IMG/VR virus record: IMGVR_UViG_3300006916_000136
Location: 1 to 36,637 of that record
Origin: a virus
Reading direction: 5' to 3' (one strand)
Length of the DNA stretch: 36,637 bases
In this document: positions 9,926-36,637 of the stretch, in pieces
Numbering within the stretch: the stretch's first letter is position 1
Layout: every line of letters begins with the position of its first letter
Translations under genes and position numbers: made by a program
The notes under the pieces: model-generated
The model's database searches: none
Told to the model about the DNA's origin: nothing
Seen by the model: only the letters and a program-made list of their open reading frames with translations

Positions 9926-10573
9926 ATGCGTAAAAAAATGAGAAAATATCAACCAGGTGGTTCAATGAATAAAACTCAACCTAATCCTGTTAATCCTGTA
10001 GCACCTGTAGCAAAAGAACCTATGAATACTGGACTTCAAAATGCAGGTCAACCTCAAGCAGCTCAAACACCTGTAACCCCTATTACTAATGGTGCAACAG
10101 CTCAAGCACCACCAATGGATCCTTTACTTGTAGCTAAAGCAAAATATACAAAGGCTGGATATAATCCAAGAAAAGCACGTAGATTGGCTATGAAAGAAGT
10201 AAATCCTTTAAACAGAGATAGAATTTCTGGAAAAGATGTTCTAAGTACGGCTGGTAATGTACTTAAACTAGCTAATGATTCTGCTGGTACTATTGGTGCA
10301 TTTAGAAGCGTTTTTCAAGAAAATGGTGGTGTAGTGAGTGGAAAGAAACTTAGAAAAGCTAATGGCTTTATGCAAGACGGTGGTAGTGTAAAAAAAGCTG
10401 GAAGAAAAGCTACTAGAGCTATGAAGAAATATATTGGAGCTGAAAAAGCATACACTTCTGGTAATATGAAAAAAGGTGCTAGGAAAGAAGCTAAAGGCGA
10501 TAAAATAGCTAGAAAGGTTAATAAACTTCAAGAATCATCTAGACCACCCCTATCTAAAACTAGAAAAAGATAA
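9926..10573 (+). CDS. basic Pro/Gln-rich virion-associated protein with GG motifs
   Basis: This 215-aa product is not assigned to a known function. The N-terminus is basic and ends in a GG tag (KYQPGGSM, about residues 6-13). A Pro/Gln/Ala-rich linker follows (about 14-70), then a helical part with 'KAKYTKAGYNPRKARRLAMK'. GG motifs recur at 'ENGG' and 'FMQDGGSV', and the C-terminal ~50 residues are Lys/Arg-rich with KEAKGDKIARK, which matches KEAKSDKIKTK in the gene at 11080. The modular layout suggests a DNA-binding or packaged virion protein. A second Met at residue 5 is an alternative start. Confidence 0.6.
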   Translation: MRKKMRKYQPGGSMNKTQPNPVNPVAPVAKEPMNTGLQNAGQPQAAQTPVTPITNGATAQAPPMDPLLVAKAKYTKAGYNPRKARRLAMKEVNPLNRDRISGKDVLSTAGNVLKLANDSAGTIGAFRSVFQENGGVVSGKKLRKANGFMQDGGSVKKAGRKATRAMKKYIGAEKAYTSGNMKKGARKEAKGDKIARKVNKLQESSRPPLSKTRKR

Positions 10574-10578
10574 AAGTT

Positions 10579-10869
10579 ATGGCAAGATGTATGAAATGCG
10601 GAGGTTCTAAGATGGCTAAAGGTGGTGCTTTAAGATCTGTACCAGGTGGAACTAAATATAATGGTCTTAGATCTCTTCCTACAACTGTAAGAAATAAAAT
10701 GGGTTATGCTCAATATGGTAAATCTGTTTATGATAATGGTGGTATGGTAGGTATGCCTATGTATACTAACAATCCAAGGTTTGAACAAGGTAGAATTCTT
10801 GCTTACGGAGGTTCTTGTGGTCCTAAAGTAATTAGTGCTAAATCTCTTAGAAGATCAAAATCTTTTTAA
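10579..10869 (+). CDS. small basic Gly-rich protein with Cys pair
   Basis: This 96-aa product starts MARCMKCGG (a CxxC within the first 8 residues) and carries several Gly-Gly motifs: AKGGAL, VPGGTK, DNGGMV and AYGGSCG. The C-terminus is basic (SLRRSKSF). It lies 5 bases after the previous stop and 1 base before the next start. No function is known to me. The GG pattern is shared with the large cargo proteins at the end of the window, suggesting it is a virion component. Confidence 0.55.
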   Translation: MARCMKCGGSKMAKGGALRSVPGGTKYNGLRSLPTTVRNKMGYAQYGKSVYDNGGMVGMPMYTNNPRFEQGRILAYGGSCGPKVISAKSLRRSKSF

Positions 10870-10870
10870 G

Positions 10871-11080
10871 ATGACAAATGATGCAGAAGTTTTAAAGTTT
10901 TTTAGAGAGTCTAAAGAAAAGATGTCTGAAGGTGGCTCAAAAGATGCATGTTATAAAAAAGTAAAAGCAAGAGAGTTAGCATTAGGTAACAAGTGGCCTT
11001 CTGCATATGCTAGTGGAAGACTTGCAACATGTAGAAAAAAGGGAGCTTCTAACTATGGTAATTCCAAAAAGAAAAAGTAG
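10871..11080 (+). CDS. small basic protein with NDAEVLKFFRES tag and PSAYASG motif
   Basis: The ATG at 10871 follows the previous stop directly, and I prefer it to an in-frame GTG at 10835 that would lie inside the upstream gene. The 69-aa product has two parts. The first is an N-terminal NDAEVLKFFRES tag plus SEGGSKD, shared with the gene at 12085. The second is a body with ACYKKVKARE...KWPSAYASGRLATCRKKGA, which matches a small protein family I know from marine phages that usually reads 'YKVWPSAYASG'. The function is unknown. It is Lys-rich throughout with two Cys, and a nucleic-acid-binding or capsid-internal role is possible. Confidence 0.7.
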   Translation: MTNDAEVLKFFRESKEKMSEGGSKDACYKKVKARELALGNKWPSAYASGRLATCRKKGASNYGNSKKKK

Positions 11081-11676
11081 TGGCTGTTAGGAAAACTAAA
11101 AAAGGTGCAGCACTTAGACGTTGGTTTAAAGAAGATTGGCGTACACCATCTGGGGATAAAGATTATTCTAAAGGTGACACTACATTTAGACCTACTAAAC
11201 GTGTAAGTAAAGATACACCTACTACTTGGAGTGAATTAACTCCTTCTGAGATAGCTGCCGCTAAAAAAGAAAAAAGAGAAAAGAATAGAGTTAGTAGATA
11301 TAAAAAAAAGAAAACAATGGCAAAGAAAAAAGTTGGTGGTACAGCAGCTAAAAAATTTAAAGCTCACGCTATGTATAAGGATGGTAAAGTTGTAAAGGCT
11401 AAAACCATGGCTGAACATTTAAAGTTAAAAAAACTTGGTTATGGTCATACTAAACCTAAAATGAAATTAGGTGGGGCTAAACCAAAAAAGGCCAATCGCT
11501 TATATAGGAAAGCTGATAAGGTTGAAGAGAAAGCTTATGTTAAATATGAAGCATCTAATAAAACAGCTAAAGATAAAAACAAGTATCTTAAAAAAGAGGC
11601 TAAATCTGATAAGATAAAAACTAAAGCTTATAAAGCAAAAGTTGGTAAAAAGACATACAAAAGAAAATATACTTAA
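11080..11676 (+). CDS. two-module basic protein (WFKEDW domain plus Lys-rich domain)
   Basis: The start is a GTG sharing one base with the preceding TAG. Residues ~8-70 ('GAALRRWFKEDWRTPSGDKD', then a TFRPTKRVSKDTPTTWSELT stretch) match a small domain common in phages, with the WFKExW signature and an RVSRYKK end. From Met80 (11317) the sequence reads like a second small gene: MAKKKVGGTAAKKFKAHAMY, a GG motif (KLGGAK) and a Lys-rich C-terminus with KEAKSDKIKTK, also found in the gene at 9926. An A-rich stretch upstream of Met80 resembles a translation leader. The gene may be a fusion, or it may express a second product of about 119 aa. The function is unknown. Confidence 0.65.
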   Translation: MAVRKTKKGAALRRWFKEDWRTPSGDKDYSKGDTTFRPTKRVSKDTPTTWSELTPSEIAAAKKEKREKNRVSRYKKKKTMAKKKVGGTAAKKFKAHAMYKDGKVVKAKTMAEHLKLKKLGYGHTKPKMKLGGAKPKKANRLYRKADKVEEKAYVKYEASNKTAKDKNKYLKKEAKSDKIKTKAYKAKVGKKTYKRKYT

Positions 11677-11704
11677 AGAAAAGTAGTGCTAACTTAAGAT
11701 ACTA

Positions 11705-11977
11705 ATGGCAACTAAAAAAGCAAGTAAGAAAAAAGGAGCTATGAAAGGCTGTACAATCAAAAATGGTTGTAAGTCTAAAAAAGGTGGTCTTACTGCTAAA
11801 GGTCGTAAAAGCATTAACCGTAAAACTGGTTCTAATCTCAAAGCACCTCAACCAGGTGGTGGAGCTAGAAAGAAAAGTTACTGTGCTAGATCTGCTGGTC
11901 AAATGAAAAAGTTTCCTAAAGCTGCTAAAGATCCAAACAGCCGTTTGAGAAAAGCAAGGAGAAGATGGAAATGCTAA
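11705..11977 (+). CDS. small basic protein of the 'TAKGRKxxNRKTGSNLKxPQ...SYCARSAGQM' family
   Basis: This 90-aa, very basic product contains 'GGLTAKGRKSINRKTGSNLK' (about 29-48), PQPGGGARKKS, YCARSAGQMKKF and a C-terminus ending RKARRRWKC. I recognise this as a widespread short phage protein (usually SFCARMxGM and a terminal RxWxC) frequent in marine and other environmental phages, with no demonstrated function. Conserved Cys, Trp and many Lys/Arg make a nucleic-acid or metal-binding role plausible. It is the last gene before the promoter-like motif at 11984. Confidence 0.75.
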   Translation: MATKKASKKKGAMKGCTIKNGCKSKKGGLTAKGRKSINRKTGSNLKAPQPGGGARKKSYCARSAGQMKKFPKAAKDPNSRLRKARRRWKC

Positions 11978-11983
11978 TGTTTT

Positions 11984-11998
11984 TTTTGTATATTAATA
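11984..11998 (+). promoter_or_regulatory. putative late promoter TTTTGTATATTAATA
   Basis: A copy of the recurrent motif (TGTATATTA form) lies in the short gap after the 90-aa gene, preceded by a run of T. If TATATTA (11989-11995) is the -10 element, transcription would begin near 12002 and serve the genes at 12085, 12310 and 12567. Confidence 0.6.
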
Positions 11999-11999
11999 T

Positions 12000-12065: not shown

Positions 12066-12084
12066 AATAAAACTATGGCAAGTA

Positions 12085-12303: not shown

Positions 12304-12309
12304 TGGATA

Positions 12310-21458: not shown

Positions 21459-22498
21459 TGGACTATAACTATACACTTAAATACAGAACTTTTGATCAAC
21501 TTTTAGAAGATGTAACTGTAGATTTAAATACATTTGCTTTAGAAAATATGATTGAGCCTCAGCAGCTTATTAAGCTTGCTAAGAAACTTAATTATGATTT
21601 AGGTCTTAGAGTTAATCAACAAAAAGAAATCATCTTAGATGTAACGCATGGTAAAGTAAAATTACCTGATGACTTTTATACATTTAACTTTGCTTACATA
21701 TGTGGTGATAGAAAGTCTGCACAAACATTAGGATACGATGGTTTTGCAGGAGGAACTAATATGCAAGAAGTTAAAATAACTGATGGTAAAATTCCTGAAA
21801 CATATACAGACTTTCCTGCACAAGTTCCAGATCCTTGTGATACTTCACAACCTACATGTTGTTGTAATGATGAAGGAACTTTAGGAACATGCTTAGTACA
21901 CAATCCACAACAACCTTATGGTGATGAATTAACTAAACCTAGAGTTTTTATGAATTGTAAAAATGAAACGTATGAGTTAATACAAGTAATTAATGCTTCT
22001 GAAACTTATGTATATGATAGTCTTCTTCCTTTAAGAATGAAAGCTAGTCAAAGTATTGATTGTCATTGTCCAAATTTATACTATAACACACCTAATGAAG
22101 GTTGGATTAAATATGGATTTTTATACACAACTTTTAAAACAGGTAAGGTTTACTTAAACTACCAAGGTCAAATGGAAGATGATGAAGGAAACTTGTTAGT
22201 TCCAGATCATGATAGAATAAATGAATATTACGAATATGCATTAAAAGCTCGAATATTAGAAAACTTATATCTTAATGGAGAAGATGTTTCCCAGAGAATG
22301 CAGCTTATTGAACAAAGATTAAGAGAAGCAAGAAATAATGCATTGAGTATAGTTAATACACCAAACTTTGCTGAAGTAAAACAAATTTGGGCTGCAAATA
22401 GAAAAGCTATGTATGGTAAATATTACAATATGTTTATGTCATACTCACCTAACAGTGGATTCAATAGAGCTTATGATAATATTAGAGTTGTACAGTAA
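21458..22498 (+). CDS. tail ring / tail tubular protein 2 with Cys-rich insertion
   Basis: This 346-aa protein has an N-terminal helical domain (YRTFDQLLEDVTVDLNTF; 'LIKLAKKLNYDLGLRVNQQK'), then KVKLPDDFYTFNFAYICG near 67-84. This is the layout of the second ring protein that accompanies the 221-aa type in crAss-like phages. A Cys-rich insertion (about 124-150, CDTSQPTCCCNDEGTLGTC) is followed by a beta domain and a C-terminal helical domain (YEYALKARILENLYLNGEDV, REARNNALSIVN). The C-terminus is aromatic and hydrophobic. It shares single-base overlaps with both neighbours. The CCC insertion is unusual for an intracellularly assembled ring and may be exposed. Confidence 0.7.
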   Translation: MDYNYTLKYRTFDQLLEDVTVDLNTFALENMIEPQQLIKLAKKLNYDLGLRVNQQKEIILDVTHGKVKLPDDFYTFNFAYICGDRKSAQTLGYDGFAGGTNMQEVKITDGKIPETYTDFPAQVPDPCDTSQPTCCCNDEGTLGTCLVHNPQQPYGDELTKPRVFMNCKNETYELIQVINASETYVYDSLLPLRMKASQSIDCHCPNLYYNTPNEGWIKYGFLYTTFKTGKVYLNYQGQMEDDEGNLLVPDHDRINEYYEYALKARILENLYLNGEDVSQRMQLIEQRLREARNNALSIVNTPNFAEVKQIWAANRKAMYGKYYNMFMSYSPNSGFNRAYDNIRVVQ

Positions 22499-25400
22499 TG
22501 GCAAAAAAAGGATTAAATCAAACAAGTATTGATAAAAGTAAAAGTTTTCTCAAGGGATTAACTAGAGATACAGATCCATCATTTATTCAAGATGGAATGT
22601 GGACATATGCTAGAAATGCTGTAAATAATACTAAAGAAGGTGATCTTGGTACATTGTCTAATGAAGAATCTAACGCACTGTGTGCAAAGATTGGTTTAGA
22701 TATTACTGTAGAAAATAATCCTGTAATAATAGGTGCTATACCTTTATTTGAAGGTAAGTGGATTATTTATTCTGCTATATATGATGCACAAAATAATAAT
22801 GTTATTACATCTGAGATAGGTTTATTTGAAGAAGAGTTTTGTAAATATAGACCTATTGTAAGAGATACTTGTTTAAATTTTAACAAGTTTAATTTAGTTT
22901 CAGGAGCATCTAGAGAAAAAGAAGATTGTTCTTGGCAAGTGTATTGGGCTGATGGATTAAATCCAGATAGATATGTAAATATAGGAGATCCTAATAAATG
23001 GCCTTCTGAGTCATATTCATGGCTTGGTGGTTTAGGTCCTAATACAATTAATTATTACACAGATGGTACAAACAATATATTATGGCCTGGGGTAGCTTGG
23101 GAGGAAGATTGTGTCATTGTAGATGATGATGGTAATACTGTTATTGTAGTTGAATCTGAAAATGATAGCATACCTTTAGGCTGCAGAATATGCAAACCTT
23201 TAAACAAATTAAGTTGTGATGATATAAGATTAGCAAGTCTTGTTAAAACTCCATGTATAGATGTTACAGTAAGTTCTCAACAAGGTACTATTGAAAATGG
23301 ATCTTATGCTTTTTATTTAGCCTATACGATTGATCAACAAGCCGTTACTAACTTTTTTTCACCATCTTACATACAACCTATTTTTAATGAGATAAATGAA
23401 AGAGGTTCGCTTGAATTAAAAATAGATGCTGATACAGAGCACTTTGATGAATTTGTATTAGTAGTTGCTAGATTTACAAATCAAAATTCTAGTTTAAAAA
23501 CCATTGGATATTTTTCTACAAATAGCCAAAACATAGTTATAGATCAAATAGCAGAATCATTAGGCAATGCTGATGAAAAAGCTGTACTCCAACAAAATCC
23601 AGTATTTGAAACCTCTAATCAAATTGCAGAAGGTAGCAGATATTTATTAAGAATAGGACCTACTTCAAAGTTTGATTTTAATTATCAACCCTTAGCAAAC
23701 TTAATTAAATCTAAATGGGTATCTGTTGAATACCCTGAAGACTATTATATTAAAGGTGGTAAAAATGCAGGCTATTTAAGAGATGAAGTTTATTGCTTTT
23801 TTATTAGATGGGTATATGATACAGGAGATAAGTCTGCATCATATCATATTCCAGGTAGACCTGCTAGAGATTATTCAACGCCTTTTTCAGGAACAATTAA
23901 TGAAGTAGATACATATACAGATCAAAACAGTTTGCCAGGAGAGCAATTCTTATATGAGACTATAAATACAGGTACATATACAGGAAATGGTGGAACTCCT
24001 GATGCTATTGATGACTTTGGTGGTAAAATTATTGCTGAAGGAGATATGGGATTTTGGCAATCTACAGAAAGATATCCTGATAACAGACCTGATATATGGA
24101 ATTCTTCTTACTATTGTTGGACTAAGAGTACAGATGCTCAAAATGATTTATGTGGTAGACCTATTAGACATCATAAATTTCCTGACAATTCTGTAAATCA
24201 AGATGCATATCATTTTGATGAAAGAAATGGTCAATACTTTATTAGACTTATGGGAGTTTCATTTGAAAATATTATACTTCCAAAAGATCAAGATGGTAAA
24301 GATATTGAAGGTATTGTAGGTTATGAAATATTAAGAAGTTCTCGTCATGGGAACAAAACTATTGTTGCTAAAGGTATGGTAAATAACTTTAGGGATTATG
24401 AATTACAAGGACGAACAAATTCTGATGCTAGTATAGGTCTTTATGCAAACTATCCATTTAATTGTATAAGACCTATTGATAATAGCACTAACCCAAATAA
24501 TGAAAACTATGGGTTTAATGATCCGTTTATTTTAAGTAGATTGCCAGACAATCAAACAATAAATCCTTTTGATGCTGAGTTTGTTAATCAAACTTTACCA
24601 CAAGATTTAATTAGTTTTCATTCTCCAGATACATCATTTAAGAATCCTTACTTATCTATGTCAGAACTTAAGGTATATGGTCATTTACAAGGTACTGCAG
24701 AACAAAAATTTATAGAACCAAACGGTCATCCAAAGTTTAAACTATTATCAGATGTAGTAGTAGTACTTGGATTAGTAGGTGGTGTATTAAATGCTATGGC
24801 TAAAACACTACCTAAAAGAAAATTAAAAACTGATCTTACAGCAAATCAGGTAGTACAGACTGGAGGTGGATCCGTACCAGATACACCATCATTAGGAATA
24901 GCTGGATACACTGCTGCAACTACAACTATGGCACCTCTAGTTACTGCTGCAAATACTACAGGTACTTTAGGTGTTACAGGTACAGATCCTTATCAAGTTG
25001 CATATAAGGCTGGACAGACTGCACTTAATGCAGGTGCAATTGGATATGCCTATTCAATGAGCAGTTATGAAAAAGAACCTTCAGTATATGAGTTGATGCC
25101 TCCAGGTTTAGCTGCATTGGGTAGTATTGGACCTTATATATTTTATGTACTAGAAGGAGCTGGAAATACAACGGACCTTATATATGCACTTATCAGAAGT
25201 GAACAATATGCTCTAGAACAAATTAGTCATGGTGATTATACTGAGTGGGTAGTAGCTCCTACTGATTTTCCTAGTAGATTTACAATGGCAGATGGTATTT
25301 ATGTTTATGACGATGTACAAGACTTTCCTGAATTCCAGGACAATGGCGGAACATCAGTTAGATATAGAATAAATAATAAAAAAAGACCTAAGCTAACAGT

Positions 25401-27822
25401 ATTAAGAACTGAATCAGGAAACGGTTTAAATATAGGTCCAAGATTTTTATATAATGGTGGTAGTCAACTAGATCCTGATAATGTAAGTATTGATACATCT
25501 TTAATGACATTAGGAGTTGCTGCTGATGTGTATTCTGATACAGGAGTAGGTGGAAAACCAGCTGATAAGGAAATTCCTTTTACTAATACTATTGCAAGTA
25601 ACTATGCAGGTTTAAAGTTTAGTATAAGAAATCAATATGGTAAACTTGAGAATGTACAACAAATTATTGCAACACCTTGTGAACAAAAAATAGATTTTGA
25701 TAATCTATCAACTACAAATTTTGGTGCATCAACACCAGATTGTATTGTACCATTAATTCACAATAAGATTGCAAAGACGCCAGTATTTTTTGGTGGAGAT
25801 ACTTACATAAATAGATTTACTGAGAAAAACATAATGCCATTCTTTAGACAATGGTTATATGATCAGCCAGAGAATACACCTTTTAATTACTACATAGAAC
25901 CTAATGTGCCTTATCCAAGATACTGGGCTAACAGTGAACCCTGGGATTTTGCAGGACTATATAATATAAGTAATATAATTGATGTTCTTGCAGATACAAG
26001 TTTTGGTTCTGGATTATTACCAAGTAGTTATTATAACTTAGATAAGTTTGGTGTTAATTTTTTAAGACCTAAAAATGACTATTTTTATTTAGCTAATTGT
26101 GGAATAAGAGATTTCTTTGTTGAGTCAGAAGTACTAGTAGACTTTAGAGCAAGAGGAACATTTGACTATGAAGAATTCTACAGTAAGTATAGATTTACAG
26201 ATTTAGAGTTTTTATTTAACATGGATCCTGATATACTTACACGAGGTAATAAATATATTTATGATTATTCTTTAAGTTCTTCTAGATTTATATTTAATCA
26301 ATATTTCACACAAGGTCTATTACAAAGCAAAACTTATGATCCTGAAGTTGCAGATTTATGTTTCACGTCATATCCAAACAGAATTAATTATTCTTTACCG
26401 CAAGTACAAGAAGATACTACAGATGGTTGGTTAACTTATCTTCCGTTAAACAGAGTGTCATTTAGAAATGATGTTAACTCTGTAAAGAATTACGGTAAGA
26501 CAGGAGTCTTTATAACTTTTGAAGATGCACCACCTATGTTATATGAAGGTGTAGATCAAAGAGAAACATATGTTGGTGTAAAGACAACTGTTGGAGATGG
26601 TGGTTTATTTGCAGCAACACCTGTTAATGTAACTGCTGCAGATAAAAAGTATGAGTATGGTTCTTCTCAAGATAGATTAGGAATTATATCTACTCCTGTT
26701 GGTTTATATTATATAAGTCAACAACAAGGTAAGATATTTTCATATGGTCAAGGTTTAACTGAGATATCTCAGATAAATATGAAATGGTGGTTTAATGAGT
26801 TTTTACCATATAAATTATTAGAAGACTTTCCTGATTTCCCACATGTAGATAACCCAGTAGCAGGTATTGGATGTTCTGCAGGTTATAACAATACAGATAA
26901 TATTATATATTTTTCTAAAAAAGATTATTATCTAAAAGATGAATATAAAGGACAAGTAGAATATATTGAAGGAGACAACTTTGCATATACTATAGATAGA
27001 AATAAAATTACAATTAAGCTTGGTGATCCAATATTTTTTGAAGATGCTTCATGGACATTAAGTTTTGACCCTAAAAATAATCAATGGATATCATTTCATG
27101 ACTGGCATCCTAACTTGTTAATCTCAAGTAGAAATAAACATTATACTACTAAGGCAGGTGCTATATGGGAACATAATGCAGGTTGTAATAATTATTGTAA
27201 TTTTTATGATAAACAGTTCCCGTTTGAAATAGGCATTCCTTTTACTACAGGGCAAAACGTAGTTACTGTAAGAAGTATAGAGTATTTTTTAGAGTGCTAT
27301 AAAAGAGATAGTAATTTCTGTGTAGATCAGTATCATGTGTTAGATTATAACTTTGATCAAGCTATTATATTTAATTCTGAACAAGTTTCAGGATATCTTA
27401 ACTTGAATATATTTCCTAAGAATAATGTAGCTTTATCTCAAGATTATCCAAAAGTAAATCTAGGTTCTGTAGATATATTAGTATCAAAAGAAGAACAGAA
27501 GTATAGATTCAATCAGTTTTGGGACATAACTAATGATAGAGGAGAGTTTCCAGTTGGTTCAGGTTATCCACCTACAGGTCCTTTAATTCCAGGAACAACA
27601 ACGTTATTAGGTAACTATGAAGAGAATCAAATATGGAATACGCAAGCTAATGGATATATACAAGTATTAAATCCTGTAAACCTTAATTATAATAAAAGTG
27701 AAGTTCAAAGAAAAAAATTCAGACATTATAATAACTTTGTAAAGTTAATTAAGGATAATCCACAGGATGTAAATATGATATTGAAGTTTGTAAATATGAA
27801 AAGTCTTAATTCCCCTAGATAA
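22498..27822 (+). CDS. giant tail stabilisation/muzzle protein
   Basis: At 1,774 aa this is the largest gene. The N-terminus (KGLTRDTDPSFIQDGMWTYA, then RNAVNN...EGDLGTLSNEESN, residues ~19-60) is the hallmark opening of the big tail nozzle proteins of crAss-like and related phages, counterparts of P22 gp10. Further family-like stretches are RYLLRIGPTSKFDFNYQPLA (~380-400), YLRDEVYCFFIRWVYDTGDK (~422-441), HIPGRPARD, WQSTERYPDNRPDIW (~520) and CGRPIRHHKFPDN. Between ~745 and ~900 lie two hydrophobic stretches (LLSDVVVVLGLVGGVLNAMA; PPGLAALGSIGPYIFYVLEG) flanking a Thr/Ala/Gly-rich loop. The C-terminal half is aromatic beta structure and may form the distal tail tip. It is translationally coupled to ring protein 2. 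Confidence 0.75.
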   Translation: MAKKGLNQTSIDKSKSFLKGLTRDTDPSFIQDGMWTYARNAVNNTKEGDLGTLSNEESNALCAKIGLDITVENNPVIIGAIPLFEGKWIIYSAIYDAQNNNVITSEIGLFEEEFCKYRPIVRDTCLNFNKFNLVSGASREKEDCSWQVYWADGLNPDRYVNIGDPNKWPSESYSWLGGLGPNTINYYTDGTNNILWPGVAWEEDCVIVDDDGNTVIVVESENDSIPLGCRICKPLNKLSCDDIRLASLVKTPCIDVTVSSQQGTIENGSYAFYLAYTIDQQAVTNFFSPSYIQPIFNEINERGSLELKIDADTEHFDEFVLVVARFTNQNSSLKTIGYFSTNSQNIVIDQIAESLGNADEKAVLQQNPVFETSNQIAEGSRYLLRIGPTSKFDFNYQPLANLIKSKWVSVEYPEDYYIKGGKNAGYLRDEVYCFFIRWVYDTGDKSASYHIPGRPARDYSTPFSGTINEVDTYTDQNSLPGEQFLYETINTGTYTGNGGTPDAIDDFGGKIIAEGDMGFWQSTERYPDNRPDIWNSSYYCWTKSTDAQNDLCGRPIRHHKFPDNSVNQDAYHFDERNGQYFIRLMGVSFENIILPKDQDGKDIEGIVGYEILRSSRHGNKTIVAKGMVNNFRDYELQGRTNSDASIGLYANYPFNCIRPIDNSTNPNNENYGFNDPFILSRLPDNQTINPFDAEFVNQTLPQDLISFHSPDTSFKNPYLSMSELKVYGHLQGTAEQKFIEPNGHPKFKLLSDVVVVLGLVGGVLNAMAKTLPKRKLKTDLTANQVVQTGGGSVPDTPSLGIAGYTAATTTMAPLVTAANTTGTLGVTGTDPYQVAYKAGQTALNAGAIGYAYSMSSYEKEPSVYELMPPGLAALGSIGPYIFYVLEGAGNTTDLIYALIRSEQYALEQISHGDYTEWVVAPTDFPSRFTMADGIYVYDDVQDFPEFQDNGGTSVRYRINNKKRPKLTVLRTESGNGLNIGPRFLYNGGSQLDPDNVSIDTSLMTLGVAADVYSDTGVGGKPADKEIPFTNTIASNYAGLKFSIRNQYGKLENVQQIIATPCEQKIDFDNLSTTNFGASTPDCIVPLIHNKIAKTPVFFGGDTYINRFTEKNIMPFFRQWLYDQPENTPFNYYIEPNVPYPRYWANSEPWDFAGLYNISNIIDVLADTSFGSGLLPSSYYNLDKFGVNFLRPKNDYFYLANCGIRDFFVESEVLVDFRARGTFDYEEFYSKYRFTDLEFLFNMDPDILTRGNKYIYDYSLSSSRFIFNQYFTQGLLQSKTYDPEVADLCFTSYPNRINYSLPQVQEDTTDGWLTYLPLNRVSFRNDVNSVKNYGKTGVFITFEDAPPMLYEGVDQRETYVGVKTTVGDGGLFAATPVNVTAADKKYEYGSSQDRLGIISTPVGLYYISQQQGKIFSYGQGLTEISQINMKWWFNEFLPYKLLEDFPDFPHVDNPVAGIGCSAGYNNTDNIIYFSKKDYYLKDEYKGQVEYIEGDNFAYTIDRNKITIKLGDPIFFEDASWTLSFDPKNNQWISFHDWHPNLLISSRNKHYTTKAGAIWEHNAGCNNYCNFYDKQFPFEIGIPFTTGQNVVTVRSIEYFLECYKRDSNFCVDQYHVLDYNFDQAIIFNSEQVSGYLNLNIFPKNNVALSQDYPKVNLGSVDILVSKEEQKYRFNQFWDITNDRGEFPVGSGYPPTGPLIPGTTTLLGNYEENQIWNTQANGYIQVLNPVNLNYNKSEVQRKKFRHYNNFVKLIKDNPQDVNMILKFVNMKSLNSPR

Positions 27823-27823
27823 T

Positions 27824-30541
27824 ATGAATAAAAATTATTATATAGCTCCTTCTGAAATTCACGGTGATGGTTTATTTGCGCGTGTAGATTTTAAAAAAGG
27901 TGGCATGGTAGGATTGGCTCATGTTAATGACCAACCTGCTACAGAAATAGGAAAGTTTCATAATCATGATGAAAAGAATCCTACAATGATAAGTAAGAAA
28001 ATTGGTAATAAAAGATATGTTTATGCTAATCAAGATTTAAAAGCAGGAACTGAATTAACTACTAATTATAGAATGCAACCTGAATTAGGACAACCAGAAG
28101 AGTTTGATGTACCAAAAGCTCAAGATGGAATATTCTTATCATCAGGAAAATTTAGACCTCAAACTAATACGATAGGAAGTACTTTAGGTTTTAAAAAAGT
28201 ATTTCCAAAAAAAGATACTACTTGGTCATTAACAGGTAATGTAGGGTATGGTAAAAATCTAGAAGCTGATAAGGAAGGTTTAGCTGCTAGTATAAATGCT
28301 GAAAACTTTGGTAAATTCTTTGGTGGTCAAAGAAGAGTAAATGCTGTAACAAATCTAGAAGCTTTTGTGGAACCAGATAACTATGGTGGACAATTTACCG
28401 CAGGACCTAATTTACATTGGGGAACTCATCCTAAAAGATCTTTACCTAGAGGTACAGGAAGATTAGATTTTCAACCGTTTAACCTTAGAGTAGGATATCA
28501 ATCAACTCCGTATCAAACTGATTCAGGTGACGCTTTATTTGATAATGCTACTGGTAGACTTAGTTGGGGTTATGGAGCTAAATTAAAAGGTGAATATAAA
28601 CCAAAATTAAAAGGTAGATTTAGACCTACATTGTTTGGTGATTTAGGGGTTGATGCAGATTTTTTAATGCAGGATTATGATCAAGATAAAATAGATGCGG
28701 GAAGTATCACTTCTAGCAATGAAGGGTTTAAAATAAAGCCAAGCTTCTCTGCTAATTTAGGAATTAGAGTTCCTATAGATGGAAGTAGACTAAGACGTAG
28801 AAGAAGACCAGATCCAGTAGAAGAAGATGATGTATATTATAATCCAGGAATTAGAACTTCTGATCCTAATTCAGTGGAAGCATATGAGGAACCAGAAGCA
28901 TATCAAGAAGGTGGGTTTATTCTAGATCTAGATGAACAAGAAGTTCAAAGATATGCAAAAGGTGGATATATATTAGAAGAACTAGAAGAAGGTGGAGAAG
29001 ATTGTCCAGAGGGATATGTTTTAAATTTAAATGGAGAATGTGTTAAAGCAGATCATACAGGGTCTTCAGAAGAAAATGCAAATATTAAAGATGAGTTAGA
29101 AGCTCAGGGTTACAAGGATGAAACTAGTTTGCTTAAAGACGCACCTCCAGGTCTTAGTATGTTTTCATTAAAGCCTGGTCAGTCTGTAGAAGATTTGTTA
29201 GGTTCTTTAAAAGAACATCCTTTTGCTAGAACTGATAAGGATAAAGAATTCATTAAAAAGAATAAAAAAGATTGGGAAAATTTTTATGATGAAATGCTTG
29301 CTTGGGGAGGATACAATTCAGCTGGAGAACGTGACGAAGGTTTTAATCAGTTTAACCTATGGCGCAATAAACCTAATTGGAAATGGTTGGCTAAAAATGC
29401 AAGTTTTGCGAACCGTTATCTTTATAAGAATTCTGGGAAATCAGATGAGCTTACAGAAGCTGGAAAAATTGTTGAAAAATATTTTGGAGACATGACAAGG
29501 AATGATGATGGTGGATCTCCTGCAATGTGGGAGAGAGAAGATAAATTAAAAAAACACTTTTGGAAAAAGGCAGGTAGAGACTGGGATTATAGATACGAAT
29601 ATGCTGATTTTGATGGTTGGGATGGATCAAAGTTACTACGTGCAACATTACATGATACTGAAAAGTCTGGTAAGTATAAACCACTTTATGTAGACTTACA
29701 AAAGGAGTATGAAAAAATGCCGTTTAATATTCAAGAGGAACCTGTAGTAATAGAAGAAGACATTCCTCAAGTTGATATTTTAGAACCAAAAATTCCTGCA
29801 GAAATAGTTGTAAAAGAAGATTTGCCGATAATACCATTACCTGTAGCAGAAGAAGAAGTTATAGAACAACCATTACCTTCAGCTGAAGAATTCTATGCAG
29901 ATTCATTACCTGTAACAAATAGTGAAGGTGAGATAGTAGTACCTTATGAAGAAACTACAGGTAAGTATAGAAGAGAAAGAAGAGGTGTACGTAGACCACG
30001 TACAAAGAACCGAACATGGGATGGTGTTAAAGGTAACCTTCAAAGAATATTTACAGATAAAGAATATTCTGGACCATGGTTTCCAAATCTTAAAAGAAGA
30101 ATTAAGCAAGAAGGTGGTCCTATTATAAAACAAAGAAAAGGTGTTAGAGAAAATTTTGATCATTCTGTTTGGACTCCTTCAGGTGAATTCTCTAAACCTT
30201 CTAGTGTATCATCTCATTTGATGGCTGCAGAAGAAGTTCCTGGTAGAGGTTGGGTTGGGTTTCCAACTTTATTTCAAGGTAATCCATATGTAGAAAATGA
30301 AAGCATGTTGTCAACTAATGTTGGTGAGTGGTTAGATATGTCTGATCAAAATAATGGATGGTGGCCAATTTATGAAGAAGCTGACAGAAGAGGTGAAGTA
30401 TATGACTTTGGAGAAGACAAAGAAGCTGCATTAGCTTTTGGTGAAGGTTCTTGGAAAGATCAATTACCAATAGAGATTGAATTAAGTGATGAAGAAGTTG
30501 AAAGATATAGAGCTGGTGGTTATATTATAGAAGAGATTTAA
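27824..30541 (+). CDS. virion protein: SET-like domain, beta-barrel-like region and GG modules
   Basis: This 905-aa protein opens with a compact SET-like lysine methyltransferase domain (residues 7-88): IHGDGLFA (GxG motif, 12-19), GKFHNHDEKNP (N47-H48 of the NHxxxPN motif) and AGTELTTNY with Y82. Residues ~101-330 alternate polar and hydrophobic residues with many Gly and aromatics (LTGNVGYGKNLEAD; RPTLFGDLGVDADFLMQD; SFSANLGIRVPI), resembling an outer-membrane beta-barrel. Then come an Arg/acid linker, YQEGGFILDLDEQEVQRYAK then GGYILEELEEGG (about 360-392), a charged helical region, and a C-terminal domain (~806-882: VGFPTLFQGN ... YDFGEDKEAALAFGEGSWK) known to me from other phage virion proteins. 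It ends with ELSDEEVERYRAGGYIIEEI. It is probably an injected or tail-internal protein. No SAM methylation target is evident. Confidence 0.65.
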   Translation: MNKNYYIAPSEIHGDGLFARVDFKKGGMVGLAHVNDQPATEIGKFHNHDEKNPTMISKKIGNKRYVYANQDLKAGTELTTNYRMQPELGQPEEFDVPKAQDGIFLSSGKFRPQTNTIGSTLGFKKVFPKKDTTWSLTGNVGYGKNLEADKEGLAASINAENFGKFFGGQRRVNAVTNLEAFVEPDNYGGQFTAGPNLHWGTHPKRSLPRGTGRLDFQPFNLRVGYQSTPYQTDSGDALFDNATGRLSWGYGAKLKGEYKPKLKGRFRPTLFGDLGVDADFLMQDYDQDKIDAGSITSSNEGFKIKPSFSANLGIRVPIDGSRLRRRRRPDPVEEDDVYYNPGIRTSDPNSVEAYEEPEAYQEGGFILDLDEQEVQRYAKGGYILEELEEGGEDCPEGYVLNLNGECVKADHTGSSEENANIKDELEAQGYKDETSLLKDAPPGLSMFSLKPGQSVEDLLGSLKEHPFARTDKDKEFIKKNKKDWENFYDEMLAWGGYNSAGERDEGFNQFNLWRNKPNWKWLAKNASFANRYLYKNSGKSDELTEAGKIVEKYFGDMTRNDDGGSPAMWEREDKLKKHFWKKAGRDWDYRYEYADFDGWDGSKLLRATLHDTEKSGKYKPLYVDLQKEYEKMPFNIQEEPVVIEEDIPQVDILEPKIPAEIVVKEDLPIIPLPVAEEEVIEQPLPSAEEFYADSLPVTNSEGEIVVPYEETTGKYRRERRGVRRPRTKNRTWDGVKGNLQRIFTDKEYSGPWFPNLKRRIKQEGGPIIKQRKGVRENFDHSVWTPSGEFSKPSSVSSHLMAAEEVPGRGWVGFPTLFQGNPYVENESMLSTNVGEWLDMSDQNNGWWPIYEEADRRGEVYDFGEDKEAALAFGEGSWKDQLPIEIELSDEEVERYRAGGYIIEEI

Positions 30542-30574
30542 TAAACATATAAGGTTTAAAAAGTAAACTAAAAA

Positions 30575-30587
30575 TTAGTATATTATA
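30575..30587 (+). promoter_or_regulatory. putative late promoter TTAGTATATTATA
   Basis: A strong copy of the shared motif lies in the 62-base gap before the 1,554-aa gene, 16 bases from the ATG. With TATATTA at 30579-30585 the expected start is near 30592, giving a leader of about 12 bases. It would drive the last cargo-type genes separately from the muzzle operon. Confidence 0.65.
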
Positions 30588-30603
30588 CATAAGTACTTAA
30601 ATC

Positions 30604-33600
30604 ATGGCAAAAAAGAAATATAGAATATATAAAGCAGGTGGTGCTCAACAAGGTAGAGTAATAAATCCTACAGCAAAGTTTTTAGCTAAGGCACAAATGG
30701 GAATGCAACAACCATCTCCTGAAGAAATGGAAATGATGGAACAGCAAGCAATGCAGCAGCAAGGTCAGCCTCAAATGTCTGAAGAACAAATGATGCAGCA
30801 GCAAGAGCAAGTACAAAGAATGGTAATAGAACTTATTGAAGACTATGCTGAACTTACACAAGCTGATCCTAAAAAAATATATGAAACATTACAAGCAACT
30901 GAAAATCCTCAAGAACAACAAGCTATGCTTGATCAGATGGCAGAAGTTGTTCAGAAAGCAAATGCTGGTGCAGAAGAAGAAGTTGAAGCAGCCGAGCAAC
31001 CAATGAGTAAAGGAGGTTATGTAAAAAGTAGATTAAAGCAATTAAAAAAAGCTCAGGAAGGAATGGAAACTCCAGAAGAGCTTGAACAAACACCTACCAT
31101 TAATGATACACCAGATGGAAGAGAATCTTTAGTATCTAATTTTAATCAAAGTTTAAAAAGTACTGCTCAGAATGCAAGTTATAAACAACAAGCTGAACAA
31201 GAGTTTGATTCTGGTAATTACCAATTTGGTGGAGGTAAAGAACGAAGACAACAAAGAAGAACTAACAGAAGGTTAAGAAGAGCATTTAAGGATATACCAA
31301 TGGCATATGGTATAAATCAAATGGGTGTTCCTAGTTCAGGTATAAATGTTTTTGCACCTGCTATGATGCAAATGCCTTCACAAAAAGAAATTATTAAATC
31401 TGAGAATGCTGAAAATTCGGAAGTTACAAATGAATTTAATCCTCAAGGAGTTAATATTAAAGGAAGCATGAAATATGGTCTTTTTGGTAGACCTAAGAAA
31501 TATGAATTTGAAATGTCTGGTATGCCAGGTACATTCACTCCATTTATGGGAGGGATGTTTGGAGCAGGTGCTATGAGTACAGGTTCTAGTGGATATTATA
31601 GATCAGGAACAGATTGGCAAGATCCAGTTAAAGCCTATGTAAAATTTAACAATGAAGCTAATGTAGTAACCAATGCTGATGAAGAAAATAAGATACGTGA
31701 AATTTCTGGAGCTACTGATGCTGAAGTAAAAGCAATTTCTGATACTAATAAAGAAGTACAAAACGTTATTGATAATACTTTAGATAGTTCAGGTATGTCA
31801 TTGTTAGAACAATTAGATTACTTAAAAAATCAAGGTCATAAATCTGCTAATCTTACTCCTACATATACAAATGAGGAGATGCCTGAAGAAAATGAAAAAA
31901 CAGTAGAAGAGTATGAACCTAAACAAAAAGAAGCAGCTAGTTCTAATTTTAATAAAACTGAAGTAGAAACAGAAGAAGCTGAGGAAACTTCAGTAGAAGA
32001 TATAGAAGTGGAAGCAGAAGATTTAGAAATGGAAGTTGAAAATGTTGGACCTGATCAACTTGGAGAAGGATCTGATGCATACAATCAAAGTAACATCTCT
32101 CGTAGAAATCCTTTGGATAATCCAAATGATTCAGCAGTATTTTACGATGGCCCTAGAACTTTTCAAACAAGTGTAACCCTTAAGTTTTTTGATAGAGTTA
32201 AAGAATTAGAAGCAAAAGCTGAAAAAGCAATTTTAAATGCTAAGACTCCTAAGGAAAAGAAAAAAGCTAATGATATTCAGAAAAAAGTTACTGCACTAAA
32301 AAAAGATATTGTTGCAAAATTAAATCCTGTAAATCCTGTAAATCCATATGCTCTTACGAGATCTTTTGCAAATACTAGTCCTGAAGAAGATACTTTATTT
32401 ACAAACTTAACACCAACGCAAAAATTAAATTCAATGATATATGGTACGCCAAGTATCAAACAAGATGGTGGTGAAATGGATGATCCTTTTGCAAATATAA
32501 GAGGTACAGGCGAACCTAATTTAGCGCTACCATCAGAAAATGCATATGGGTTAAGTGAAGAGCAACTAGCAGTAGGTAAAGCAAAGATGCAAGATATTTT
32601 CTCAAAAGAAAATTTTGCTGGTGGTCTTTTTAACAACATGAACTACGTAAATCCTGCGGCAGATGACGAATGGTCTATGACAAGTCCAGAACAATTAGAA
32701 GCTCAAAAAGAGATTAATGAATACCAAGCTCCAAAAACATTTGATGATGTTTCTGAGGAAGAATTAGAAGAGGTTGTATATAGTGGAGATTTAGGTACTT
32801 TAAAACAAAATATAAATGATACCGTAGCTCAATTTGCAGCTGCTGATCCTAATGTACAAAAAATACTTGATGAACAAGGTGTTGCTGCTGCAATAGCTAG
32901 TTCTGATATAATTAAAGATACTATTAATCAGGAGTTTTCTGCAGCCTTTTTAGCAGCTATAAATGATACAGTAAATATAGATCTTGTAGACATGTATAAT
33001 GATGTATTATCAGGGAAAAAAGTAGATTCTAGTTTATTAAACGAATATTATGGTGATTCTATAGATGTTGCTACTTTAGATTCAACTGCTCTTGCAGAAA
33101 AAATATTACCTATATTGTCACAAGAGTTATCCGAACCTATGGGCTTGACTGATTACTTAGAAGCTATTGGTTGGACTGCTGGTGGAATAGCAGCAGCAAG
33201 ATATGGCTACAAAAAGTTTAAGGGCAGAATACCTCGTGGTACTAGTATTTCTGATTTTAATTTTAAAATTGCAAAACCATTGCCTGGAGGTAAATCTACA
33301 GTTACACCAATGTTTAAAAGAAAAAGTTTACCACCAGGAAGTGGAAGCTCATATTCTAAATCTGGAAAAAGTATATCTAATAGAGTTACTGTACCTAGAT
33401 CTGCACCTAGGACTGTTGGACAAACAATTGCTAAATCTAAACCTAGCCGTTGGTCTAGATTTTTACAGGGTGCAAAAATACTGGCAAAAGGAATGGGCAG
33501 AAACACTCCAATGTTAGCTCCTGTTTGGGGTCTATTGGATACTGAAGAAGATAAAAAAGATGATCTATTTTATCAATTATATTTTAACCAACCAAGAACT

Positions 33601-35268
33601 TCTACTTCGGGTAAAAGAACAATGAAATTACAAGGAGGAGGTTTTGTGAACATAGATGATCCTATGTATGGTAATCCAGACTTATATAAGTTTACTGGAG
33701 GTGGTCAAGACTTTATGGGTTATGGAGGAATACCAATGGCTCAATTTGGTTATGCTAATGTAGATGAAGATCTTACTGATGAAGAAAGAACATCGTTTAC
33801 TCAGACTCCAGAGTTTGGAGAAGCTGCTAGATCTATGCTAGATGAAGATTTGTATGGTGGTAGAGGTATGGGATATGATGACATGCAATATGCAGCTTCT
33901 GAGAATCTAGGTTATAATGAAGATAAAGGAGATCAAGTAGCAGATTACTATGATAATATATTAACTGATCAAGGACCTGCTGCATTTCAAAATGCAATAA
34001 ATGAAGGTCAAGATAGTTATGTATCTGCAATACCTTTTGCAAATAACACTAATCCTTTTCCTGCAGAGATAATTTCTAATCCTCAAATGGAAGCTTTACA
34101 AAATTATACAGCACCAGAAGATTTAAGAGAGCAAGGTTATTTAAATAATAATCTAGAAGCTCAACAACAATATTTAGCTCCAGGAGAACAATATAATGAT
34201 GTTCAGTGGGATGATTATCAATATGGTGGTTATTTAATGAGAGCTCAAGACGGTGTTAGTGGTATCAAAAATCCTGATGGTCCAATGCCTGGATTTACAT
34301 GGGAGGAATGGGAACAGCTTAGTCAAGAAGAACAAAAACAAGCTATACAAGGAAGTCGTGATGCTAGAAACCAATATGCAACTCAACGTCAGCAAGTACA
34401 ACAACCTATTAATCAAACAGGTTTTAATCCTTTTGGTGCATTAGCAGGTGCATTAACAGGAATGCCTTATGGTATGGGTAATAGTAGACAAAAAGTGTTT
34501 AATAATGCAGGAGGATATTGGAAACAAACAGGGTTTCCTGCAGGAACAATTGATCCAAGTAATATAACTAGAGTTCATACTGAAGGTAAGAGAGGTTTAT
34601 TTGGTCCTAAAGGTAAGATGGATATTTACTTTGGTGGATCAGGAGAAGCTGCTGCTGATGGAGTTCCACAAGGATCTGCAGATGGACAGAGACGAGGTTT
34701 TCCTGACATGAGCTATGATGCAAGAGCAGAAAGAGCTGAAGGTAGATTTGATCGTAGAGCTCAAAATGCTGTAGACAGAAGAGAAAGAAGAGATGCTAGA
34801 CCTGGTGAAAGAGCAGCTAGACAAGAAGGCAGACAGTTAAACAGAGAAGAAAGACAGTTTGAAAGAAATCGTAGACAGAATATAAGACAGGGTAGAGGTG
34901 ACACTGGTGGTTTTGATAGAGATGCGGCTATTGCAAGAAGAGCAGCAACTGCAGAACAAGCAGCAAATTCTCAACAAGTGATTGCTGATCCAAATCCTGG
35001 GTATAGTACTGATAAGCTAAATAAATTTAAAGCTGGAGATATGAGTAGAGGTCAACTTAGAAAAGCTGACTTTAACAGATCAGAAAGAAAACAATACAGA
35101 CAAGGTGATGCTGAAGGAGCTTCAGAAGCTAGAAAAAATAGACGTAGAGCTGAAAGATTGAAAGAAAAACAATACGGTGGTTATTATCAAGAAGGAGGAG
35201 AGTATGACCTTACAACAGAAGAGATATTAGAAATAATGGCAGCTGGTGGTCAAATAGAATTTATTTAA
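30604..35268 (+). CDS. large internal virion (cargo-type) protein
   Basis: This 1,554-aa, low-complexity, modular protein starts with a GG tag (KYRIYKAGGAQQG), a Gln/Met-rich segment (~27-72) and a helical EDYAELTQADPKKIYETLQA region. Further GG/QDG sites are SKGGYVKSR, KKAQEGM, KQDGGEM, LQGGGF, AQFGYAN, QYGGYLMRAQDG and QYGGYYQEGG. An acidic Glu/Val-rich part lies near 430-485. A weakly hydrophobic helix (LTDYLEAIGWTAGGIAAARY, ~849-868) precedes basic sequence, and residues ~1371-1443 are almost all Arg, Glu, Ala and Gln. The C-terminus (YDLTTEEILEIMAAGGQIEFI) resembles the end of the previous protein. Position after the muzzle gene and this composition match capsid cargo proteins of crAss-like phages that are thought to be ejected with the DNA. 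Confidence 0.65.
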   Translation: MAKKKYRIYKAGGAQQGRVINPTAKFLAKAQMGMQQPSPEEMEMMEQQAMQQQGQPQMSEEQMMQQQEQVQRMVIELIEDYAELTQADPKKIYETLQATENPQEQQAMLDQMAEVVQKANAGAEEEVEAAEQPMSKGGYVKSRLKQLKKAQEGMETPEELEQTPTINDTPDGRESLVSNFNQSLKSTAQNASYKQQAEQEFDSGNYQFGGGKERRQQRRTNRRLRRAFKDIPMAYGINQMGVPSSGINVFAPAMMQMPSQKEIIKSENAENSEVTNEFNPQGVNIKGSMKYGLFGRPKKYEFEMSGMPGTFTPFMGGMFGAGAMSTGSSGYYRSGTDWQDPVKAYVKFNNEANVVTNADEENKIREISGATDAEVKAISDTNKEVQNVIDNTLDSSGMSLLEQLDYLKNQGHKSANLTPTYTNEEMPEENEKTVEEYEPKQKEAASSNFNKTEVETEEAEETSVEDIEVEAEDLEMEVENVGPDQLGEGSDAYNQSNISRRNPLDNPNDSAVFYDGPRTFQTSVTLKFFDRVKELEAKAEKAILNAKTPKEKKKANDIQKKVTALKKDIVAKLNPVNPVNPYALTRSFANTSPEEDTLFTNLTPTQKLNSMIYGTPSIKQDGGEMDDPFANIRGTGEPNLALPSENAYGLSEEQLAVGKAKMQDIFSKENFAGGLFNNMNYVNPAADDEWSMTSPEQLEAQKEINEYQAPKTFDDVSEEELEEVVYSGDLGTLKQNINDTVAQFAAADPNVQKILDEQGVAAAIASSDIIKDTINQEFSAAFLAAINDTVNIDLVDMYNDVLSGKKVDSSLLNEYYGDSIDVATLDSTALAEKILPILSQELSEPMGLTDYLEAIGWTAGGIAAARYGYKKFKGRIPRGTSISDFNFKIAKPLPGGKSTVTPMFKRKSLPPGSGSSYSKSGKSISNRVTVPRSAPRTVGQTIAKSKPSRWSRFLQGAKILAKGMGRNTPMLAPVWGLLDTEEDKKDDLFYQLYFNQPRTSTSGKRTMKLQGGGFVNIDDPMYGNPDLYKFTGGGQDFMGYGGIPMAQFGYANVDEDLTDEERTSFTQTPEFGEAARSMLDEDLYGGRGMGYDDMQYAASENLGYNEDKGDQVADYYDNILTDQGPAAFQNAINEGQDSYVSAIPFANNTNPFPAEIISNPQMEALQNYTAPEDLREQGYLNNNLEAQQQYLAPGEQYNDVQWDDYQYGGYLMRAQDGVSGIKNPDGPMPGFTWEEWEQLSQEEQKQAIQGSRDARNQYATQRQQVQQPINQTGFNPFGALAGALTGMPYGMGNSRQKVFNNAGGYWKQTGFPAGTIDPSNITRVHTEGKRGLFGPKGKMDIYFGGSGEAAADGVPQGSADGQRRGFPDMSYDARAERAEGRFDRRAQNAVDRRERRDARPGERAARQEGRQLNREERQFERNRRQNIRQGRGDTGGFDRDAAIARRAATAEQAANSQQVIADPNPGYSTDKLNKFKAGDMSRGQLRKADFNRSERKQYRQGDAEGASEARKNRRRAERLKEKQYGGYYQEGGEYDLTTEEILEIMAAGGQIEFI

Positions 35269-35277
35269 TATACTAAA

Positions 35278-36637
35278 ATGAAAGTAAGAATTAAAAATTT
35301 AGGAAAGTTAAGACAAGCTGCTTACGGTGGTCAACAATCAGATGGAGCTTTAGATGTTACACCTACATCTTTTGGTGGTAGTATGGCTTCTGCTCAAGAA
35401 GGTGTTCAAGTTCAAAAAACTTTAACAAGAGAACCTAGAGAAGAAGCTAACTTAGAAGCTGAAGGTGGAGAGACTGCATTTGGTCCTATATCTGGAGATA
35501 CTATTCCAGATCATATGGTAATAAAAGGCCCTAGACATTCTAGTGGTGGAGTACCTCTAAACCTTCCAGATGATACTTTTATATTTAGTGACACTAGGAG
35601 AATGAAAATTAATGATCCTAGTATATTAGCAATGTTTGGTAAAAAGAAAAAGAAAGGTGGATATACTCCAGCAGATCTTGCCAAGCCATATGATATTCAA
35701 AAGTATAAGGCTATACTTATGGATCCTGAAAGTGATGATAAAGCTGTGTCTACTGCTCAAATGATGATACAGAATTATGTTTTAAAATTAGGAGCATTAG
35801 CTTTAGCTCAAGAAGCTAAGAAAGGATTTCCACAAGGTATTCCAGAAATGGCCAGACCATACATGGAAGCTAATGGTATTGCTGATGAAGACTTATTACC
35901 AGAACAACCTCAACAAGAGCAACCTCAGCAACCTATGCCTGAGCAACCTATGGAGCAAATGCCAGAAATGCAAATGCAACCTCCAATGGCATTTGGAGGA
36001 TATACCGATTTAAATAGGTTTATAGAAGGTGGAGATCAAACACTAGCTTTTAATAATGGTACAGTACAAGGAGCTACTGCAATGGATAGACTTGATAATT
36101 CAATCTATAGTGAAGAAAATTTAGATAATCTTACAATGGATGACTTAACTGAGCGTAATACTCAATTACTAGCAAATGATCCTATATCTGAAGAAGAGTT
36201 TGATCCACCCCCACCACCTACTCCAGAAGAAATAGCATCAGGAGAAGATCCAGAAGGAGGAAAAGCTTCATACAAATGGAAAAATAAGTTTAATGTAAAT
36301 AAGCCTGAATTAGCACGAAGAGCTAATATGGCTATGAAGATTGGTGCAAATCTTATCAATGAATATGATAGACGTAGAATTGCAGGTAGAAGTCAAAGAG
36401 CTAGTTATGATGAACCAGCTAGACAAAAAGATTCTAGAGGTATGTATGGAGCTAACACAGGTAGAGAAGCTCTAAGAAACATGGAAGAATCAGAAATGAT
36501 AGTAGGACAAGACTATGGTCAATACGGTGGATCTATGGCAGATTATGCTATGAGCATGGGAGGATCTTACTTTCCTACTATGGCTACTGGTGGATTTAAT
36601 ATGTTACCAATGGCCCAAGATGGTGACGGAGGTAAAA
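35278..36637 (+). CDS. internal virion (cargo-type) protein, 3' end outside window
   Basis: The frame opens with ATG at 35278, 9 bases after the previous stop, and stays open for 453 codons to the window end, so the gene is truncated by the window. The N-terminus is basic and ends in a GG tag (KLRQAAYGGQQSDG), with FGGSM and SAQEGVQ soon after. Residues ~58-115 read 'LEAEGGETAFGPISGDTIPD' and IKGPRHSSGGVPLNLPDDTF then IFSDTRRMKI, a conserved block I recall from large virion proteins of Bacteroidota phages, followed by YTPADLAKPYDIQKYKAIL. A Pro/Gln/Met linker (~210-238) precedes another AFGGY and EGG. It probably forms a packaged protein set with the two preceding genes. Confidence 0.7.
   Translation, partial: MKVRIKNLGKLRQAAYGGQQSDGALDVTPTSFGGSMASAQEGVQVQKTLTREPREEANLEAEGGETAFGPISGDTIPDHMVIKGPRHSSGGVPLNLPDDTFIFSDTRRMKINDPSILAMFGKKKKKGGYTPADLAKPYDIQKYKAILMDPESDDKAVSTAQMMIQNYVLKLGALALAQEAKKGFPQGIPEMARPYMEANGIADEDLLPEQPQQEQPQQPMPEQPMEQMPEMQMQPPMAFGGYTDLNRFIEGGDQTLAFNNGTVQGATAMDRLDNSIYSEENLDNLTMDDLTERNTQLLANDPISEEEFDPPPPPTPEEIASGEDPEGGKASYKWKNKFNVNKPELARRANMAMKIGANLINEYDRRRIAGRSQRASYDEPARQKDSRGMYGANTGREALRNMEESEMIVGQDYGQYGGSMADYAMSMGGSYFPTMATGGFNMLPMAQDGDGGK

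Follow-up and report, generated by a model that had tools for sequence, protein, structure and literature searches.

The Gly-Gly peptides that recur in the proteins of this crAss-like phage fragment look like one motif, but they resolve into a system of internal joints between protein modules and a set of matched terminal elements at the ends of the proteins encoded by a block of cargo genes. The terminal elements are an acidic C-terminal element (CTE) and a basic N-terminal element (NTE); the type of the CTE on one cargo protein is matched to the NTE of the next. Docking of the one onto the other is our leading explanation for this arrangement.

The 36.6-kb record was analyzed entire, and its 36,637 nt are here called the window. 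Its TerL matches those of Crassvirales and related Bacteroidota phages at ~25% identity, and IMG/VR holds at least 598 relatives of its capsid gene, the best 80 of them at 89–95% identity. Relatives were used for everything downstream of the window: we called open reading frames and compared gene order in 80–107-kb relatives and in several shorter ones, and searching with the conserved domain of 35278, the last gene of the cargo block, added 80 further loci. The total comparison comprised about 95 relatives. Gene order is that of crAss001 (gp42–gp50 synteny), with portal, capsid, tail proteins, muzzle (22498), a block in the C1/C2 position and RNA polymerase (RNAP) proteins. The muzzle-like tail gene (22498–27822, + strand), which by this synteny has the position of crAss001 gp44, carries neither the GG code nor terminal elements and is the boundary at which the cargo block begins. 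In the window clade this block consists of the three or four genes after the muzzle; in the window they are a first gene, 27824 (27824–30541, + strand), a middle gene, 30604 (MID; 30604–35268, + strand), and the last gene, 35278. Judging from gene order, their products are presumably internal virion proteins that are injected. Between the first and middle cargo genes lies a gap (30542–30603) of 62 nt in the window and mostly 56–60 nt in relatives, and gaps at the other cargo junctions are about −4 to 11 nt. The longer gap may hold a promoter or regulatory element. Elsewhere in the window, downstream of the capsid gene (11080–11977), small basic genes have DUF5872 and DUF6321 domains, of which DUF6321 also occurs in several PHROG families from other phages (phrog_727, 3477, 10346).

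An earlier note on this DNA had listed the Gly-Gly peptides, and every one that we looked up was present and in frame. Within the window, the literal pattern ([KRA]xQxG or YGG) rose above shuffles only in 30604 (9 versus 2.6 expected, p = 0.001). A narrower pattern for the joints (QxGG, A[QK]xG, [AQEYF][YFK]GG), compared with per-protein composition-matched shuffles, was in excess in 27824 (5 versus 0.8 expected, p = 0.002), 30604 (11 versus 2.0, p = 0.001), 35278 (5 versus 0.6, p = 0.001) and 10579 (3 versus 0.13, p = 0.001), and marginally so in 9926 (2 versus 0.3, p = 0.034). It was not significant in 12310 or in the TerL, portal, scaffold, capsid, ring or muzzle genes of the window. When motif counts were compared with within-protein shuffles by gene class across 14 genomes, QxGG was enriched in the three-gene cargo block (77 versus 25.7 expected) and in the small basic cluster (21 versus 3.1), with no excess in other structural genes (9 versus 37), the RNAP block (6 versus 11) or the rest (7 versus 30). 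YGG was in excess in the cargo block only (74 versus 19.7 expected), where GG[YFM][IVLM] was also enriched (65 versus 8.9). Because the excess over shuffles is found in the cargo block and the basic cluster, the GG code is not a composition effect. Enrichment after composition correction, a check that the earlier note had proposed, is specific to a subset of the presumed internal virion proteins and is seen neither in the RNAP block nor in the rest.

The listed peptides are thus real, but the list mixes module joints, two terminal elements and GG pairs that belong to the fold of 35278. The code does occur at N-termini, at C-termini and between linkers, as had been described, and this includes positions between modules. 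In the basic cluster, where QxGG is enriched, gene 9926 carries an N-terminal GG element, KYQPGG (9944–9961, + strand), and a second GG copy, FMQDGG (10367–10384). Genes of this cluster share Q-x-GG but have no terminal elements (NTE in 0/96, CTE in none).

Cargo proteins are mosaics. Relatives hold SET, GNAT, Zn-ribbon-like, LysM/SLT, amidase, VanY and ART-PolyVal modules; SET, SLT, Amidase_2, ART-PolyVal and VanY occur across 30 proteins, and one relative protein combines SET, GNAT and PG_binding. The first cargo gene of the window is a variable mosaic with no NTE, a CTE at its end and a weak SET match just under the cut-off. A PKAQDG joint follows the SET-like domain (28112–28129), an internal joint cassette, consisting of a CTE-like unit with flanking GG (EAYQEGGFILDLDEQEVQRYAKGGYILEELEEGG), lies at 28895–28996 (CTE profile E = 5.7e-7), and a KQEGGP joint lies at 30104–30121, all on the + strand. 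The middle gene has its NTE first, its CTE last and several GG joints amid low-complexity stretches, again on the + strand: MSKGGYVKSRLKQLKKAQEG (31003–31062), KQDGGEM (32458–32478), MKLQGGGF and MAQFG (33622–33750) and YQYGGYLMRAQDG (34216–34254). As a separate observation, the ~230 residues past the PKAQDG joint of 27824 (28130–28830) resemble the alternating aromatic/glycine strands of an outer-membrane-type beta-barrel, an unusual look for a phage cargo protein; the stretch has no Pfam match.

Homologous segments have their ends at joint elements far more often than expected, both in the variable genes of a first set (27 versus 9.1 expected, z = 5.8) and among the 63 non-redundant proteins of a second (107 versus 47.3, z = 9.4), for which control dipeptides gave z values of −2.2 to 3.3. 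The distant C1 family (crAss001 and relatives) behaves similarly, with [FY]-A-x-GG elements (18 versus 0.8 expected) flanking the modules that have been inserted, lost or duplicated. We propose that the short internal GG elements (LPKAQxGG, YQDGG, AxGG) would serve as hinges joining exchangeable modules.

Nearly every cargo protein save the last ends in a CTE, a short acidic helix-GG-strand such as GGFIMELTDKEIERYRKGGFIIEELD or EVYMTDDELDEFLANGGEVEYI. A profile trained on other loci and contigs was used to search 890 proteins of 14 genomes, 48 of them cargo-block proteins. All 41 matches fell within these 48, with no match in the 842 other proteins or in shuffles. Most matches are at the exact C-terminus, the GG lying mostly about five residues from the end, and the remainder are at internal joints. 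In the window, the type 2 CTE of 27824, IEIELSDEEVERYRAGGYIIEEI (30470–30538, + strand; profile E = 1.2e-7), and the QYGG joint with the type 3 CTE of 30604, EYDLTTEEILEIMAAGGQIEFI (35167–35265, + strand; profile E = 2.9e-8), are each followed directly by the stop. The last cargo gene has no CTE, and crAss001-type single-gene C1 proteins have GG joints and no CTE. A tblastn search of phage records with a CTE cassette gave no match. Modelled alone with AF2, the type 3 CTE of 30604 was predicted to form a helix with an extended tail and no autonomous fold, as would be expected of a peptide that requires a partner. Codon identity in the type 3 CTE was 0.551 versus 0.577 expected from codon usage; since this is not above expectation, the constraint is on the peptide and not on the DNA, and the same test led us to reject a DNA-level origin of the CTE, whether as a recombination arm or as an overlapping promoter.

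Some first cargo genes carry other tails (QGGDLSKLNKFIH and similar). An alternative basic GG tail (KKIGGVIKIRKSKLNKFKH, RKKGGDVPKLLRFTR) ends some cargo genes at loci L181/L175, L164, L200, L207 and L208; the gap from these genes to the middle gene is shorter (35–39 nt), and the middle gene of L175/L181 lacks its NTE.

The NTE is a basic N-terminal element of the form KVRIxKxP..GG or KYRITSxP..GG. Its profile matched 30/48 cargo proteins versus 5/787 others. The window has a type 2 NTE in 30604 (KKKYRIYKAGG..., 30610–30687, + strand; profile E = 2.2e-9) and a type 3 NTE in the last cargo gene (MKVRIKNLGKLRQAAYGG..., 35278–35352, + strand; profile E = 9e-5). Middle cargo genes mostly have both elements, and the last has the NTE without the CTE. 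Net charge is +3 to +4 for the NTE and −3 to −5 for the CTE, with controls near 0, the basic cluster apart.

The types of the two elements are matched across gene junctions. CTE type 1 (LGDEVDEATMKxLKKLGYTxE) is found only before genes starting KY[RKQ]I[TV][SG] (NTE-Y), a start seen in 0/39 first cargo genes; it precedes NTE-Y in 8/9 distinct cases versus 0/54 (Fisher, 2e-9). The type 1 CTE and NTE-Y might be inherited as a single unit. Likewise, an alternative CTE3 goes with an alternative NTE3 in 9/9 cases versus 0/67, although this swap probably represents one clade. We also measured co-variation by partial Mantel correlation given distances in the conserved domain of the last gene. Cognate pairs gave the highest values (CTE3×NTE3, 0.39, p = 0.001; CTE2×NTE2, 0.37, p = 0.002), above both the non-cognate pairs (CTE2×NTE3, −0.04; CTE3×NTE2, 0.16; NTE2×NTE3, 0.12) and the adjacent-sequence controls (CTE3×C1 residues 21–45, 0.18; CTE2×MID residues 21–45, 0.25). 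Cognate elements lie only a few to about 60 bp apart, and this linkage, a partial confounder, could inflate their co-variation.

In two lineages the middle and last genes are fused. There the CTE3 and the NTE strand are missing, and a plain GG linker is kept; a search for more middle-last fusions returned the same contigs and only these two lineages. The loss bears on a further reading, in which GG elements are flexible linkers only, marking recombination joints between modules and taking part in neither binding nor cutting. Module ends do coincide with GG, and C1-family modules are gained, lost or duplicated between [FY]AxGG elements, as this reading would have it. We nevertheless regard it as very improbable: it leaves unexplained the conserved terminal elements, their types and their absence on fusion, and the lack of excess codon identity means that the type 3 CTE is not a DNA homology arm.

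These data suggest instead that CTE/NTE pairs are docking ends that link the cargo proteins head-to-tail so that they are stored and ejected in order, the GG joints acting as hinges, a proposal to which we give about an even chance of being correct. The acidic CTE of protein n would bind the basic NTE strand of protein n+1, presumably by strand pairing, so that separate proteins would be strung in gene order: first cargo protein, middle, last. The last may anchor the string near the portal. Such a string would allow the proteins to be packed in order and ejected N-to-C with no need for a single giant gene. More tentatively, we propose that a few orthogonal CTE/NTE docking pairs assemble the injected cargo of environmental crAss-like phages head-to-tail, which would allow effector genes to be inserted, split or fused with the ejection order kept.

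The earlier note had taken the peptides to mark proteins destined for the capsid interior, either as a common packaging tag or as protease sites. The code is indeed carried by presumed internal (cargo) proteins, but a universal tag or a set of protease sites is poorly supported. A packaging tag has a precedent in T4, where a capsid-targeting sequence directs internal proteins. That sequence is, like the CTE and NTE, a short terminal element specific to internal proteins; it differs in being a single N-terminal type that is cleaved off, where CTE and NTE occupy two ends and come in matched types. In its present form the idea would be that the NTE, the CTE or both bind one shared partner (portal, scaffold, tail barrel or capsid) that sends the proteins into the procapsid. 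It would account for the strict specificity of the terminal elements for the cargo block, for the presence of at least one of them on nearly every cargo polypeptide and for the one NTE still carried by the fused middle-last gene. From a shared partner one would not expect the first gene to lack the NTE and the last the CTE, types to match the next gene, or co-variation to be greater for cognate than for non-cognate pairs. Moreover, RNAP proteins are part of the virion cargo in crAss001 (PMC6235969, PMC10172136), and they carry neither terminal element (0/35) and show no GG enrichment. We therefore consider a packaging tag unlikely.

The last cargo gene may connect the block to crAss001 C1. Between the muzzle and RNAP genes, the cargo block of the window occupies the position of the C1 gene, and 35278 encodes a conserved folded domain (35416–35910, + strand; AF2 pLDDT 94), a possible counterpart of the C1 portal-docking domain. 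Its GG pairs (EAEGGE, GPRHSSGG) are part of the fold, so they are not to be counted as code. By hhalign the domain aligns with the portal-docking segment of the C1 family (gp45 residues 425–552) with E = 0.0012 over 96 columns, and on this sequence comparison, together with the matching gene position, homology of the two is likely, if unproven. Full-length hhalign of the 35278 and C1 families was uninformative, Foldseek of the domain against the PDB found neither gp45 nor any other match, tblastn of the C1-like domain against phage records gave no match, and a search for related loci with the whole 35278 protein found none. In BFVD, the domain resembled in its structure (E = 1.2e-4) an 895-residue structural protein from Cellulophaga phage phi4:1. 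We identify this protein, by its length, as gp040, which is recorded as found in virions by MS/MS and which carries the elements YQNGG, FQIGG and FQSGG.

In crAss001, segments 214–245 and 425–552 of gp45 (C1) have been modelled in the virion (PMC10172136). These segments begin at, or immediately past, AYGG (residues 207–210) and AFGG, and the second stops ten residues ahead of the next GG. gp45 resembles the cargo proteins in its position after the muzzle gene, its basic N-terminus and the GG elements around its modules. A predicted transmembrane helix near the N-terminus is a further trait of C1. It differs in being one 842-residue protein without a CTE, where the window clade divides the block among three or four proteins that have CTE/NTE ends.

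The modelled segments also bear on cleavage. Cleavage of the GG-x type has precedents in adenovirus and ASFV, and the GG elements might be cut by a virion or post-injection protease, possibly one of the virion-carried zincin domains, to release modules. GG-type motifs are enriched in presumed virion precursor proteins, modules are bounded by GG, and HExxH (zincin-type) motifs recur, as motif matches alone, in several cargo proteins and in most large RNAP-block proteins. In addition, polyvalent proteins have been predicted to be zincin-processed (Iyer et al., PMC5512222). Cleavage at internal joints is therefore possible. Yet the claim that the code consists of virion protease sites is not borne out. 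With the CTE at the extreme C-terminus, a cut after its GG would free only about five residues and would not give two sizeable products; cut sites would not be expected to co-vary or to come in types matched to the neighbor; and AFGG of gp45 (residues 425–428) starts the modelled, portal-bound segment 425–552, so the chain is continuous there. We judge a protease code improbable. Separately, in genomes G001–G009 (e.g., L095, L097) two large RNAP-block proteins carry HExxH-type motifs, YHEAWH in a protein of 2.7–3.9 kilo-residues and LHEF[SA]HP in the adjoining protein; from these motifs, the two are candidate virion metalloproteases.

How phage internal proteins are organized and ejected in sequence through a narrow tail is largely open, and in crAss001 all that can be seen is pieces of a single cargo protein. 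With a peptide code from which the contacts between cargo proteins, and their order, can be predicted, the question becomes directly testable with short peptides. The code also provides a signature by which to search viral metagenomes for injected effectors, whose own sequences have diverged too far to be recognized, and CTE/NTE pairs could supply orthogonal docking tags for building protein chains.

Among known systems, the cargo proteins resemble the polyvalent proteins of phages and conjugative elements described by Iyer et al. 2017 (PMC5512222), which are likewise large mosaic polypeptides beside virion genes, with SET, ART-PolyVal, GNAT, lysozyme, amidase and LysM domains and zincin-like HExxH motifs. 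The class is also characterized by genes placed with virion or transfer genes, by products delivered along with the DNA and by frequent zincin metallopeptidase domains; here the block adjoins the muzzle and RNAP genes, and HExxH was seen at the level of the motif. Relatives have at least two conflict-type domains in one polypeptide, a criterion for this class, and their membership in it is well supported; the window copy has the weak, sub-cut-off SET match only. The difference is the defined code of joints and end elements, for which we found no counterpart in the available part of that paper.

The CTE also recalls the helix-GG-strand of the SutA RNAP-binding domain (PF20661) and DUF7210 (PF23843). 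Six-frame scanning of phage genomes gave few matches to these families, weak ones that fell on CTE sites, and SutA matches at the C-termini of 30604 homologues (G015, G006, G004, G002) were in register with the RNAP-contacting residues of SutA. All scores on the CTE were below the curated cut-offs and helix-GG-strand is common in unrelated proteins, so we do not take the likeness as a sign that the CTE binds RNAP and keep it as a lead only; the SutA-like register is possibly convergent.

Polyketide and non-ribosomal peptide synthases offer a close parallel to the proposed docking. Their docking domains are matched C- and N-terminal elements that order proteins, are complementary in charge and are absent where proteins are fused. 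CTE/NTE pairs share with them the matched ends at cognate junctions, the charge complementarity and the absence on fusion. We claim no homology between the two; the CTE and NTE lie in a phage cargo block, where they would, by analogy, bind one another to set the order of injected proteins.
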